Source of the DNA: a virus
Virus record (IMG/VR): IMGVR_UViG_3300020436_000124
Location: 1 to 20,468 of that record
DNA: 20,468 nucleotides
Reading direction: 5' to 3' (one strand)
Under the pieces are notes generated by a model. The model searched no databases. It was not told the origin of the DNA and worked only from the letters and a program-made list of their open reading frames with translations. A program made the position numbers and the translations under genes. This document shows positions 3,468 through 14,883 of the stretch, piece after piece; within the stretch, counting starts at the first letter, position 1, and every line of letters begins with the position of its first letter.

Positions 3468-3644
3468 TTAAACATGCGGTTCAGTATGACCATGTGATTG
3501 CTCTGGTTTCACGTTGTCAGTATGACATTTGTTATGTTGAATTTTTTTCTTTGGCCATATAAGAGCATATGCCATTGTAGTTAAGGAAGCCACGGCTACA
3601 ATCACCATGGCTATAAACATCATCATGAATATCATTTTGTCCAT
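3468..3644 (-). CDS. 58-aa single-span membrane protein with His-rich tail
   Basis: The ATG at 3644 gives MDKMIFMMMFIAMVIVAVAS, one strong membrane span (about 4-30), then WPKKKIQHNKC and a hydrophilic tail with five histidines ending HGHTEPHV. The positive PKKK after the span suggests the tail is cytoplasmic. It overlaps the upstream membrane protein gene by 13 bp and ends 8 bp before the glycosyltransferase. Family unknown. The histidines and one cysteine could bind a metal, but that is only a suggestion. Confidence 0.7.
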   Translation of the reverse strand: MDKMIFMMMFIAMVIVAVASLTTMAYALIWPKKKIQHNKCHTDNVKPEQSHGHTEPHV

Positions 3645-3886
3645 ACAAAAATAGATTTTTCATATAGAAAGGGAAACCTTTCTTTTGCAATAGCGTGTAT
3701 TTCAATCTGTCTCCAAAAAGCAATACACACTGCAACAGACCAATGTAATGCCCAAACTCCTAGAAAAAAAGGAGTCATAGAAGGCATAATATACATCATA
3801 GCAACTGCACCTATTAAATACACTTTACCTGTGGCAAGAATTACCCAAGCAACCTTGTCCCAGATATTGTTCATTTGTCCTGTCAT
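3632..3886 (-). CDS. 84-aa two-span membrane protein
   Basis: Unknown function. Two hydrophobic segments are visible, about residues 12-34 (VAWVILATGKVYLIGAVAMM) and 38-58 (TPFFLGVWALHWSVAVCIAF), followed by a charged tail RQIEIHAIAKERFPFLYEK. The ATG at 3886 overlaps the stop of the upstream 39-aa gene as ATGA, so the two are probably translationally coupled. Part of a run of four overlapping small membrane protein genes. Confidence 0.75.
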   Translation of the reverse strand: MTGQMNNIWDKVAWVILATGKVYLIGAVAMMYIMPSMTPFFLGVWALHWSVAVCIAFWRQIEIHAIAKERFPFLYEKSIFVWTK

Positions 3887-4002
3887 TTTTTAGGTCCGTA
3901 CAAAGATTTGGTTACACCAATTAAAAAGATAGCACTCACACCAATTCCGCAGACAAAAATGACTGCGGAATTAGGATCATTAAAAAAATCAATCAGTCCC
4001 AT
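3883..4002 (-). CDS. 39-aa single-span membrane protein
   Basis: The ATG at 4002 gives MGLIDFFNDPNSAVIFVCGI, a membrane span (about 12-31, VIFVCGIGVSAIFLIGV) and a short basic end (KSLYGPKK). A purine-rich GGGAGAGAGGAGA tract just upstream supplies the ribosome site. It overlaps its upstream neighbour by 14 bp and its downstream neighbour by 3 bp (ATGA). Unknown function; the tight packing and good ribosome site support it as real. Confidence 0.65.
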   Translation of the reverse strand: MGLIDFFNDPNSAVIFVCGIGVSAIFLIGVTKSLYGPKK

Positions 4003-4177
4003 TCTCCTCTCTCCCAGTTTCAATAACCCTGAAAGCACCTAGAATTGATGGAACCCAAAGACCAACATAGATACCATACAATTTAGCATCAGGACTGTCC
4101 ATAAAGAAAAACAAATAAATTGAGAGTGCTAATGATAGCACGGTTGCGATTAGTACATATTGATGTGATTTCTTCAT
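3989..4177 (-). CDS. 62-aa two-span membrane protein
   Basis: The sequence MKKSHQYVLIATVLSLALSI has a basic start and a first membrane span (about 7-27), then DSPDAKLYG and a second span (about 36-52, YVGLWVPSILGAF) and an acidic end. I prefer the ATG at 4177 because AAAGG is just upstream; an in-frame ATG at 4189 lacks a ribosome site. It is the first gene after the 4197-4223 hairpin. Function unknown. Confidence 0.7.
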   Translation of the reverse strand: MKKSHQYVLIATVLSLALSIYLFFFMDSPDAKLYGIYVGLWVPSILGAFRVIETGREENGTD

Positions 4178-4196
4178 TTTACCTTTCATTATTATA

Positions 4197-4231: not shown

Positions 4232-4771
4232 TTACCAAGTTGTATCTGCAATGGCAGATGTTCCCATACCAGATGATTTAGTATCATCTATATTTTTGAG
4301 AATGTTTTCAGGTTTTGTGATTTCATAAGGATCATCATCTAAACCCATTTGATTGATACCATCCTCTCTCCATAATTTTTCTACTTCCATGTCATTAATT
4401 ATCATAGCATATCTCCAACTACGATAACCAAAGTTTTGTACTGGTTTCCATACCAGCATATTCATGTCTCTTGTAAATTCACCACTACCGTCTGGGATCA
4501 TCTTGACATTTTCAATCTCAAGTTCTTTCGCCCATGCATTCATGACAAATGAATCATTTACTGAAAGACAATAGACCTCATCTATACCTTTTGCCTTGAA
4601 ATCATCGTATAACGCTTCCAGACCTGGAAGTTGCATACTGCTTCAAGTAGGTGTAAAAGCACCTGGCAAAGATACTACTAAAACACGCTTACCTGCAAAA
4701 TACTGGTGAGCGGTTTCTATAAACCAATCAGATCCTTTTCTAATCTTCCAATTAGTATTAGGAACTTTCAT
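4232..4771 (-). CDS. Peroxiredoxin (Prx5/AhpE-like) selenoprotein with in-frame TGA at the catalytic position
   Basis: The full frame is 179 residues if the TGA at 4643-4645 is read as selenocysteine (U43). The N-terminal part reads MKVPNTNWKI ... VVSLPGAFTPT, then TGA, then SSMQLPGLEALYDDFKAKGI. Prx5 proteins have PGAFTPTC at this point, so the TGA replaces the peroxidatic cysteine itself; T40 of the TxxC motif is present. Downstream DEVYCLSVNDSFVMNAWAKE and RSWRYAMIINDMEV are typical Prx5. Start: ATG at 4771 with AAGGAG 4 nt upstream (4776-4781). The only other cysteine is C68, in the usual non-catalytic place, so it looks like a one-Sec enzyme that needs an outside reductant; the glutaredoxin gene just upstream overlaps it by 14 bp. 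A C-terminal acidic/Ser/Gly extension is unusual. Read without recoding, the locus splits into a 42-aa fragment and a 134-aa fragment lacking the active site. Confidence 0.87.
4607..4638 (-). promoter_or_regulatory. Bacterial SECIS element
   Basis: CTTCCA-GGTC-TGGAAG (4630-4615) forms a 6-bp perfect stem with a GGUC tetraloop followed by U. Counting UGA as 1-3, the GGU of the loop is at 22-24 and CUG at 25-27, the same as my recollection of E. coli fdhF (UGA CAC GGC CCA UCG GUU GCA GGU CUG), where SelB binds the GGUCU loop. A lower helix GUAUG (4638-4634) with UAUAC (4611-4607, one G-U pair) extends it across a small internal loop. The structure is coding, as bacterial SECIS elements are. Confidence 0.85.
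4643..4645 (-). other. Recoded TGA (selenocysteine codon) in the peroxiredoxin
   Basis: TGA lies in frame between ACT (Thr42) and AGC (Ser44), at the peroxidatic Cys position of the Prx5 motif. Frame and family similarity continue on both sides without a frameshift. Neighbouring genes use TGA as an ordinary stop and TGG for Trp, so a genome-wide change of code does not explain it. Confidence 0.85.
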
Positions 4772-5018
4772 TATTCTCCTTTTCAAAATGTTCTACCATT
4801 TGTAGATAATCACCTACAAACTCTCCTTTGATAAGAATTTGAGGAACTGTAGTTGATTTGGTGTGTTTCATAACTTCACCAAAAAAACGCTTATCAGAAT
4901 TGATGACTGTATATTTCAGTCCTTTTTCTTCTAGATATTCTTTTGCTTTATCGCACCATTGACATTCGGGAACTGATTGGTGCCTTATGATTACGTTCCC
5001 TGTTAAATTGACTTGCAT
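4758..5018 (-). CDS. Glutaredoxin
   Basis: An 86-aa glutaredoxin/thioredoxin-fold protein. The redox motif is CQWC (C19-C22), preceded by a strand (NVIIRHQSVPE). TVPQILIKG (57-65) supplies the cis-proline loop and GEFVGDY (65-71) the typical glutathione-binding GD/G region. Length is normal for a minimal glutaredoxin. CQWC replaces the usual CPYC. It is the first gene after the terminator at 5036-5071 and overlaps the selenoprotein peroxiredoxin by 14 bp. Prx5 and Grx occur as a fused protein in some bacteria (e.g. Haemophilus), so the likely role is to reduce the peroxiredoxin with glutathione; in phages glutaredoxins also serve ribonucleotide reductase. Confidence 0.9.
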   Translation of the reverse strand: MQVNLTGNVIIRHQSVPECQWCDKAKEYLEEKGLKYTVINSDKRFFGEVMKHTKSTTVPQILIKGEFVGDYLQMVEHFEKENNESS

Positions 5019-12510: not shown

Positions 12511-13099
12511 GTTCTCTCACTGTTTCAGATTTAGATCTAAATGTATCGTTTAACATACACCACCAATCATACCAGTGTGGTTTCTCTGTTTTCCATGTCG
12601 CAAATCTACGTTTTTCAGTTGCATAGAAATTGCGATATGATGGTACAGAAGATTTTACAGTCAATTTGTATTCGTCTGGCATTGCGAGAGGTGGGTCTGA
12701 CCATCCGTTGTCTTGAAGATTGTCAGGTTTTCTTTTAATATATTCACGTAAATCAAGGTCTGTCTTATGAAACTTTCCATACCGCAACGTGAATTCAGCA
12801 CACAAAGCATTAAATAACTCATACAACCAATCATAATGTTGAGTGCTAGACCTAACCCAAATATTAGAAGGGTGTTTATAATGGGCGGCAAGATATAATT
12901 TATGCTCTCGGTCATCTGAGAATCTCCATCTAGTCAGTTTGTGACCTCGTTTGTTTTTTGTCTCATATGGTTCGCCATCAAGCAATCGGTGAGCGGTACT
13001 CATAAGTTGAGCATACTCAACAATCATTTTGGGCACATGCTTATCACAGTGATAACGTGCCGCAAGTACAGGATCTCTGTCAATAAAAAATATGTTCAT
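12491..13099 (-). CDS. Conserved phage protein with YHCDKHVPKM motif
   Basis: A 202-aa protein of a type I recall from many marine and other phages but without a known function. The N-terminus MNIFFIDRDPVLAARYHCDK continues HVPKMIVEYAQLMSTAHRLL (conserved His, Cys, Asp and Lys at 17-24). HPSNIWVRSS (76-85) and an aromatic, basic C-terminus (RFATWKTEKPHWYDWW) are characteristic. The His/Asp/Lys content would suit a nucleic acid enzyme, but that is a guess. It starts in an ATGA overlap with the hydroxylase-like gene. Confidence 0.8.
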   Translation of the reverse strand: MNIFFIDRDPVLAARYHCDKHVPKMIVEYAQLMSTAHRLLDGEPYETKNKRGHKLTRWRFSDDREHKLYLAAHYKHPSNIWVRSSTQHYDWLYELFNALCAEFTLRYGKFHKTDLDLREYIKRKPDNLQDNGWSDPPLAMPDEYKLTVKSSVPSYRNFYATEKRRFATWKTEKPHWYDWWCMLNDTFRSKSETVREHVYFES

Positions 13100-14286
13100 A
13101 ATAATGTTCTAGTTTTAGGATTTGATACTATATCAATTACTAAATGCACTCTGTCTTCTTCTCCGTTATTAACTGCACGGTGCGGTTTTCTAGTATCTAG
13201 CAACCATGCTTCATTTATACCCATATTAACACATTGTTTATGTCCTGTCAAGTCCCAAGACTCAAACAGAACTTTATCATTTGTGATGATAGGAAAATGT
13301 ATTCGCATTAACTTACCATCACCGACACCTGAATCGGTATCGACTAAATCAGTGTGACGATCTAATTCACCATCACCTGATTTCAGTTTCATAAATCGTA
13401 TTCGATGCACTTCATCCGCTTTGAGCATTTGTACAAGTTCTCTCACTTCAGCAAAGTCATCATATAAGTATGTATCTTGCATCTTAAATTCAACATCTTT
13501 ATTTTCTTCTTGCCATTTACTATTCATCTCTGATGGTTTTGTCATAAACTCTGGCTCTGGTCTATAACCTCTCAACGAAACTGCTGACCAAGATTTACGT
13601 TTATTATAGTTTGAGTAATGGTTAGAAAATGTAGGAAGTTTAGAAAGTTTCTCTTGTATTGCAGATATAAGATGTGAGATATCAGTAGGCAATTTTAATT
13701 TTACAAGATTATGGTATTCTGTGTCAGGCACTTTTGGGTGTTCTCTGCTCTCACCAAAAATATCTTTTGAGTATGGTAGAAACCAATACACAATCAATTC
13801 ACCAAATGTAGTAACTTTTGTACCAACTTTTTGCAACCCTAATTGCGTGTCAAAGATATCATTTGTTGCAGTATCTTCAGCCCAAGAGCATACCCAGACA
13901 TCAGTTCTGTGATTACGTATCACATAATCATAAAACTCTTGCTGACTTTCATGTGAATAATCAGTAAAAGCAAATCTATCAATTTTGACATCACCAGGCT
14001 CACGATATCCAATCGGTATGTCTTGATACATGTAAATAGGTGAGCGAGTTTTACATTCTTGAATAGTGAATGTAGAACCTTTAAGATTGACTACCGTTCC
14101 ATTACTTAGATGTTCAGCAATATCATTCTTTTTCATCTCTGAAAAAGGTGAGCAACTAAACTTGTTATAGTTCTCAAATCTTTTAGTGTGTTCTAAAAGA
14201 GTATCAAGATCTATACCTTTCTGCCACGGTTTCATTTGGGATTCGTTTTGATTGCTCGACTTTTTTGTTGAGGACTTCATCAACAT
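13096..14286 (-). CDS. Aspartyl/asparaginyl beta-hydroxylase-like protein with an extra N-terminal domain
   Basis: A protein of up to 396 aa. The C-terminal third resembles the Asp/Asn beta-hydroxylase (2-oxoglutarate/Fe(II)) family: HTD (311-313), RIHFPI (328-333), WLLDTRKPHRAVNN (361-374, H369) and RVHLVID (379-385) give the HxD...H iron triad and the Arg that would bind 2-oxoglutarate. Residues about 20-240 are a separate unrecognised region with RHTDVWVCSWAEDT-like text near 127-140. Start uncertain: no ribosome site precedes the ATGs at 14286, 14280 or 14235 (MKPWQKG), and a 48-49 aa ORF in another frame overlaps the first part, so 14235 may be the true start. Such enzymes can hydroxylate proteins; the target here is unknown. 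Confidence 0.72.
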   Translation of the reverse strand: MLMKSSTKKSSNQNESQMKPWQKGIDLDTLLEHTKRFENYNKFSCSPFSEMKKNDIAEHLSNGTVVNLKGSTFTIQECKTRSPIYMYQDIPIGYREPGDVKIDRFAFTDYSHESQQEFYDYVIRNHRTDVWVCSWAEDTATNDIFDTQLGLQKVGTKVTTFGELIVYWFLPYSKDIFGESREHPKVPDTEYHNLVKLKLPTDISHLISAIQEKLSKLPTFSNHYSNYNKRKSWSAVSLRGYRPEPEFMTKPSEMNSKWQEENKDVEFKMQDTYLYDDFAEVRELVQMLKADEVHRIRFMKLKSGDGELDRHTDLVDTDSGVGDGKLMRIHFPIITNDKVLFESWDLTGHKQCVNMGINEAWLLDTRKPHRAVNNGEEDRVHLVIDIVSNPKTRTLL

Positions 14287-14353
14287 GTTTTTTCAATTCT
14301 TTTAATTGTAAAATATTCATAGATTCTAAATGAACCCTTGTCCATGTCATCAT
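14204..14353 (-). CDS. 49-aa small ORF overlapping deformylase and hydroxylase genes
   Basis: ATG at 14353 overlaps the deformylase stop as ATGA and gives MMTWTRVHLESMNILQLKEL, then a Lys/Glu-rich helix KKHVDEVLNKK and a basic end QSKRIPNETVAERYRS. It is in a different frame from the start of the hydroxylase-like gene and fills the 63-bp gap after the deformylase. The coupled start and protein-like composition support it. It may be a helical phage protein of unknown role; a chance frame is possible. Confidence 0.5.
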   Translation of the reverse strand: MMTWTRVHLESMNILQLKELKKHVDEVLNKKVEQSKRIPNETVAERYRS

Positions 14354-14883
14354 GTCATTTCTTTCGCTTGTCTTCGTGCCTTTCTGATATATATTTTTCT
14401 TCGTTTTTTAGCCTGCGACATGTGCATTGGTTTTGCTCTATCAAAGAAAGTATAACCATTTAGATGATCATACTCATGAAGTATAATTCTAGCAGAAAGA
14501 TCAATAAAACTTCCTGAAAATTCATTACCTTCTTTATCTTTCCAATTGATTGTGACACCTTGCGGTCGTGCAACTTTTGGAAAAAGACCGAACCATGTAA
14601 GACATCCTTCTTTTGCAAGATATTTTTCTTCTGTTGCCGACACAACTTTTGGATTAAACATCACCATCGGTTGCTCTTCATGCACCATCGCAAATGCTCT
14701 TGCGTTGATACCAATTTGATTTGCAGACAATCCAAGACCACGATAAAAATCCATGCAGTTTATCAACGTATCTTCAAGTTTTTCTGCATCATCTTTATCA
14801 AAGTTAAACTCATCAAGTTTAGTTGTGATTAGTTCATGATCTTCTGCAACAAGAGGAAGAATTTCTACTTTGTTTTCAGTCAT
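14350..14883 (-). CDS. def: Peptide deformylase
   Basis: A 177-aa metalloenzyme that removes the formyl group from the N-terminus of new proteins. All three signature motifs are present: GLSANQIG (51-58), EGCLTW (92-97, metal ligand C94) and HEYDHLNG (136-143, HExxH with H136 and H140). The C-terminus is Lys/Arg-rich. Deformylases are a known auxiliary gene of marine T4-like phages. The start overlaps the gene 46 stop as ATGA. The motif-2 Trp instead of Ser is a small variation. Confidence 0.94.
   Translation of the reverse strand: MTENKVEILPLVAEDHELITTKLDEFNFDKDDAEKLEDTLINCMDFYRGLGLSANQIGINARAFAMVHEEQPMVMFNPKVVSATEEKYLAKEGCLTWFGLFPKVARPQGVTINWKDKEGNEFSGSFIDLSARIILHEYDHLNGYTFFDRAKPMHMSQAKKRRKIYIRKARRQAKEMT

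Follow-up and report, generated by a model that had tools for sequence, protein, structure and literature searches.

Sec-containing peroxiredoxins have been described from bacteria, as PrxU of Eubacterium acidaminophilum and as the "Prx" TxxU family of the Sargasso Sea and GOS selenoproteomes (PMC1088965; PMC2398784; PMC13188914). In these enzymes, as proposed for the locus described here, a TxxU motif has Sec where other peroxiredoxins have the peroxidatic Cys, and a SECIS element lies just downstream (PMC1088965; PMC2398784; PMC13188914). Bacterial SECIS (bSECIS) elements have an apical loop of 3–9 nt on an upper stem of 4–16 bp, with a G within the first two loop positions that is usually followed by G or U, a distance of 16–37 nt from the UGA to the apical loop, and a minimum free energy (MFE) of −7.5 kcal/mol or lower (PMC13188914).

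The DNA analyzed here is a virus record of 20,468 bases (the window), which carries a peroxiredoxin gene with one in-frame TGA within a T4-like replication block. Comparison of this gene with its relatives, through the conserved TGA, the hairpin that follows it and the purifying selection on the frame, supports the earlier proposal that it encodes a phage selenoprotein. We consider it very probable that the product is a 1-Sec Prx5-type peroxiredoxin, made by UGA-to-selenocysteine recoding.

The peroxiredoxin gene, its neighbors and its relatives

The gene occupies positions 4771 to 4232 on the minus strand and, with TGA read as Sec (U), translates into a 179-aa protein (MKVPNTNW...LPGAFTPTUSSMQLPGLE...TTW) that ends at a TAA codon. 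The only internal stop is the TGA at 4645–4643, which is codon 43 and falls at the peroxidatic position of a PxxxTxxU motif. The protein matches Redoxin (PF08534, E = 5e-25) and also AhpC-TSA in Pfam, and PHROG 2281, "peroxyredoxin antioxidant" (E = 3e-67). When aligned with the Haemophilus influenzae hybrid Prx5, the best solved relative, U43 pairs with the peroxidatic Cys. An AlphaFold2 model (pLDDT 85.8) has the Prx5 fold, with PDB 1nm3 as the top Foldseek match. The family matches come from a search against Prx5 families that the preliminary description had proposed and, along with the translation and the 1nm3 alignment, they confirm its claim of a full Prx5 frame with a single TGA at the catalytic position. 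Pro36, Thr40, position 43 and the active-site Arg120 are invariant in the alignment; Cys68, which is not a C-terminal resolving Cys, is the only other conserved cysteine. The Redoxin/Prx5 sequence and fold, the PxxxTxxC(U) motif and the active-site Arg place the protein in the Prx5 subfamily, while against the PrxU model (NCBIfam NF040737) it scores 25.1 bits, far below the curated cut-off of 270. As had been predicted, ordinary ORF listing breaks the gene and gives only a 134-aa C-terminal piece that starts at an ATG at 4636.

A glutaredoxin (Grx) gene with a CQWC active site (4758–5018, minus strand), identified from the ORF list and a family match, overlaps the start of the peroxiredoxin gene by 14 nt, and the two remain neighbors in most phages of the window's cluster and in SAR324. 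Downstream lie four small overlapping ORFs (3468–4189, minus strand) with no family match; three of them (sm1, sm3 and sm4) are 72–100% conserved across the phages of clusters A and B (defined below), even where the gene order differs. The surrounding block contains gp44 and gp45 (clamp loader and clamp), gp46/gp47-like nuclease, the late sigma factor gp55 and UvsW, the last found by tblastn and the others by PHROGs, which agrees with the earlier assignment to a T4-like phage. Elsewhere in the window, an aspartyl/asparaginyl beta-hydroxylase-like protein sits beside a peptide deformylase (13096–14286 and 14350–14883, minus strand).

Scanning IMG/VR with the protein returned 80 relatives. The codon at the peroxidatic position divides them by identity: all 12 genes at 75% or above, counting the window's copy, have TGA, and all 69 at 63% or below have TGC or TGT. 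Further TGA genes came from a pattern scan for CCNGGNGCNTWYACNCC-NNN-TGA and from a scan for the SECIS pattern. The latter matched 118 stretches in IMG/VR, mostly without a peroxiredoxin match, and added two contigs, L330 and the distant L348. In all, some 34 different viral contigs, drawn from many separate metagenomes, and at least two bacterial loci carry TGA at this position, where 72 more distant relatives carry TGC or TGT. Comparison of the codon across homologous phages, which had been put forward as a check, thus returned these three codons and no other. The viral TGA genes form at least three sequence clusters: cluster A, which includes the window, cluster B at 56–61% identity to it, and cluster C at 49–51%. 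The peroxiredoxin of L348 (7061–7591) is 39% identical, reads PGAWTPIU and is followed by the same SECIS.

Several of these relatives deserve separate mention. Among phages with Cys, those of L013–L015 branch nearest the Sec clade, and a reversion from Sec to Cys is possible there. The cluster C contigs L097 (4453–11912) and L123 (138–4828) encode PnrA/Bmp-like and family-3 solute-binding proteins and a CxxCH protein, a transport cargo that is unusual for a phage; L097 has an ABC transporter operon as well, PhoH-type genes adjoin the cargo and L123 has a RuvC-type gene. The L348 contig has a CxxCH protein that resembles that of L097. Four further loci (L143, L187, L192 and L211) are alphaproteobacterial Prx5 genes, for example of Enhydrobacter aerosaccus; they share the TGA at this position but have another hairpin, GCCAGGTTTTCTGGC. 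These more distant genes, with their other hairpin, indicate that Sec-Prx5 is not confined to phages.

The hairpin downstream of the TGA

Conservation and comparison with Escherichia coli fdhF point to a bacterial-type SECIS hairpin at 4615–4630 (minus strand), CUUCCA-GGUC-UGGAAG, with a stem of 6 bp and a loop of 4 nt. Counted from the TGA, it runs from +13 to +28 and its loop from +19 to +22. Loop and stem sizes lie within the bSECIS ranges, and the loops of the window and its relatives (GGUC, GGGC, GGCU, AGGU and AGUU) follow the loop-G rule. The spacing of 18 nt, found in the two main clusters and the SAR324 copy, is also within range. The window's hairpin has an MFE of −10.0 kcal/mol over 45 nt, or −7.9 kcal/mol over 33 nt, which likewise passes the bSECIS limit; a few relatives miss it, for example at −6.8. 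In the fdhF SECIS of E. coli, a stretch verified in 5368 genomes, the loop lies at the same offset, and CAGGUCUG (+17 to +24) is identical in the window. The E. coli element has a bulged U, whereas the phage stem is an unbroken 6 bp without it. An Rfam scan of the window returned one tRNA and nothing else.

All 27 members of the two main clusters, of which 25 are from phages and 2 from bacteria, have a hairpin at +13 to +28, in each case within an intact frame; this joint retention of TGA and hairpin goes beyond chance, and a TGA without a conserved hairpin in a frame accumulating damage was not seen there. Outside them, the TGA of L125 is not followed by a clear hairpin, and the cluster C genes have a shorter hairpin that differs from this one. 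The counts that follow are descriptive and not probabilities, as the sequences are related, though identity between clusters A and B is only about 60%. Of the 37 TGA genes tested, 26 have the exact 6-bp stem, against none of 72 Cys genes; the codon pair CTT-CCA is found in all 27 Sec genes (clusters A and B and the bacterial pair) against 7 of 72 Cys genes, or 21/21 against 6/46 among unique sequences. The 27 Sec genes invariably encode Leu at residue +8, in contrast to Phe or Tyr in each of the 72 Cys relatives, and this difference suggests that a residue of the protein is set by the RNA hairpin. The codon in the loop, codon 7, is free to vary (GGT, GGG, AGG or AGT, for Gly, Arg or Ser), and the stem is constant. 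For the window's hairpin alone, the folding energy is not significant against shuffled sequence (z of about −1), and when synonymous codons of the window sequence are resampled, about 2.7% of the draws form the stem. The argument for a SECIS draws its force from conservation, single-sequence folding statistics being modest by themselves.

Read-through or termination at the TGA

The first question is whether the gene has simply been broken, its Cys codon (TGC or TGT) turned into a nonsense TGA, or whether the TGA is a sequencing error. The C-terminal fragment that ordinary gene calling shows alone would fit such a history, but the TGA is common to the roughly 34 contigs, down to about 39–50% protein identity, in a frame otherwise undamaged, and its recurrence at the same codon in many separate metagenome assemblies excludes a sequencing error. 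Median pairwise dN/dS values are 0.19–0.21 upstream of the TGA and about 0.08 downstream. Coding constraint on either side of the UGA is expected of a selenoprotein, as is an in-frame UGA at a redox-active position where homologues have Cys, and the downstream value speaks against decay. We hold a pseudogene or an error to be extremely improbable. A conserved gene could also be split for regulation, with termination at the TGA and re-initiation at the ATG at 4636 giving two proteins. The window and most cluster A phages have that ATG three codons past the TGA; in 15 of the 27 genes, including the whole of cluster B, codon +3 is instead CAA, CAG, CGT or CTA, which argues against re-initiation, and the break would hit an active site that is invariant on either side. 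The likelihood of such a split is negligible.

If the TGA is translated, an altered code or a suppressor tRNA for Trp or Cys might supply an amino acid other than Sec, and recoded stops are indeed used by some phages. This is very unlikely here. TGA ends 15 of the 24 genes of the window and 22 of the 31 peroxiredoxin genes counted, and its use as an ordinary stop elsewhere argues against a changed code; moreover, the phage tRNA-Trp has a CCA anticodon, no tRNA with a TCA anticodon was found in the contigs examined, and a SECIS-like hairpin comes after the recoded codon. A search of 27 contigs for TGA followed by such a hairpin returned mostly the peroxiredoxin gene; the other candidates were scattered and none was recognized as a gene, while two lie on the strand opposite a known gene. 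The hairpin could, in turn, be a by-product of the conserved protein sequence LPGLE and have no function as RNA, in keeping with the stems that arise when the same peptide is recoded at random. We give this next to no credence, as Leu +8 belongs exclusively to the Sec genes (0/72 Cys relatives), the synonymous sites of the Leu-Pro pair do not vary, and the stem persists though the loop codon changes between Gly, Arg and Ser.

Under the selenoprotein reading, the hairpin would act as a bacterial SECIS and bring the host's SelB·GTP·Sec-tRNA(Sec) to the ribosome, leading to insertion of Sec at the UGA. The selenol at position 43 would then reduce H2O2 or organic hydroperoxides, and the Grx encoded just upstream, with glutathione, would recycle the enzyme. 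Grx is the predicted reductant on the basis of the gene order and of the H. influenzae homologue, in which Prx5 and Grx are fused.

Bacterial copies, hosts and known systems

Neither tRNA-Sec nor SelB was found above cut-off in the 25 phage records with the TGA, all of which are fragments, and the lack of Sec machinery on these contigs suggests that expression depends on a Sec-decoding host. A scan of bacterial genomes found the Grx-SecPrx pair on at least two contigs. One is a 16-kb contig of the SAR324 single cell AG-404-P05, where the peroxiredoxin is 81% identical to that of the window and the neighboring genes are of chromosomal type, including ABC-transporter genes; inspection by eye recognized no phage gene among them. 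The other has the same gene order and is binned as Legionellales, although this metagenome-assembled genome (MAG) contig is probably mis-binned. The copies of the single cell and the Legionellales-labeled MAG lie at 689–1425 of L141/L282 and 1708–2444 of L225. In the protein tree, both fall inside the phage Sec clade (support of the enclosing clade, 100/98), and this nesting of chromosomal copies indicates exchange of the pair between viruses and bacteria, with phage to bacterium as the simplest direction. The bacterial copies, the Grx overlap and the wide spread among phages are additions to the preliminary description.

The single-cell genome (SAG) also encodes SelB (L284, 4429–6387; 377 bits) and tRNA-SeC; searches of this draft for SelA and SelD found neither, and across the SAR324 phylum 43 of 52 genomes have SelA. 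A close homologue of the peroxiredoxin occurs in just one of these 52, the AG-404-P05 SAG itself. The window's tRNA-Gly has no near match in the SAG and is uninformative as a host marker. With the same gene pair, SelB and tRNA-Sec in one genome, SAR324-type bacteria are the best host candidate, and SAR324-like bacteria are likely hosts or gene partners of these phages. The earlier claim that a host with SelA, SelB, tRNA-Sec and SelD is required is therefore plausible, with SelB and tRNA-Sec seen in the candidate itself and SelA in most of its phylum.

We lean, with some reserve, toward a broader picture in which marine T4-like phages keep and spread selenoprotein auxiliary genes, host selenium tunes the output of infection, and a SAR324 chromosome received its selenoprotein operon from a phage, in working order and complete with the SECIS. 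If the selenoprotein reading is right, bacterial viruses tie oxidative-stress defense to selenium and to Sec-decoding hosts, and phages are vehicles that move Sec genes between lineages. Such genes would be systematically truncated by standard annotation, and the codon would become a predictor of hosts, as the presence of a SECIS in a phage would imply a host range limited to bacteria that decode Sec.

In agreement with the earlier statement that no well-characterized phage selenoprotein is known, none was found in the literature searched, which was largely open-access and included a 2026 review of prokaryotic selenoproteomes. The surveys of bacterial Sec-peroxiredoxins do not mention phages, as searched (PMC1088965; PMC2398784; PMC13188914), and some of their unassigned reads could be viral. 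The window's protein differs from PrxU and the other bacterial enzymes in being Prx5-type and phage-encoded. Its best match in sequence and fold is the H. influenzae hybrid Prx5-Grx (HI0572, PDB 1nm3), where Prx5 is likewise partnered with Grx; in the window, however, these are two adjacent genes and no fusion, and Sec replaces Cys. Peroxiredoxins of Kyanoviridae and Pelagibacter phages (PHROG 2281; S-H9-1 and HTVC008M) are a homologous auxiliary gene of T4-like marine phages, with up to about 60% identity. In the six deposited phage records examined, the peroxiredoxin is annotated as one uninterrupted gene, and the two that were aligned (HTVC008M and C48C1) have Cys. The glutathione peroxidase of Molluscum contagiosum virus is a viral selenoprotein that detoxifies peroxide by way of the host's Sec machinery, but this is an animal virus with a eukaryotic SECIS in the 3′-UTR and an enzyme of another family. 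Sec peroxiredoxins and bSECIS elements were already known, and what appears new, as far as the literature searched shows, is that a phage carries them.
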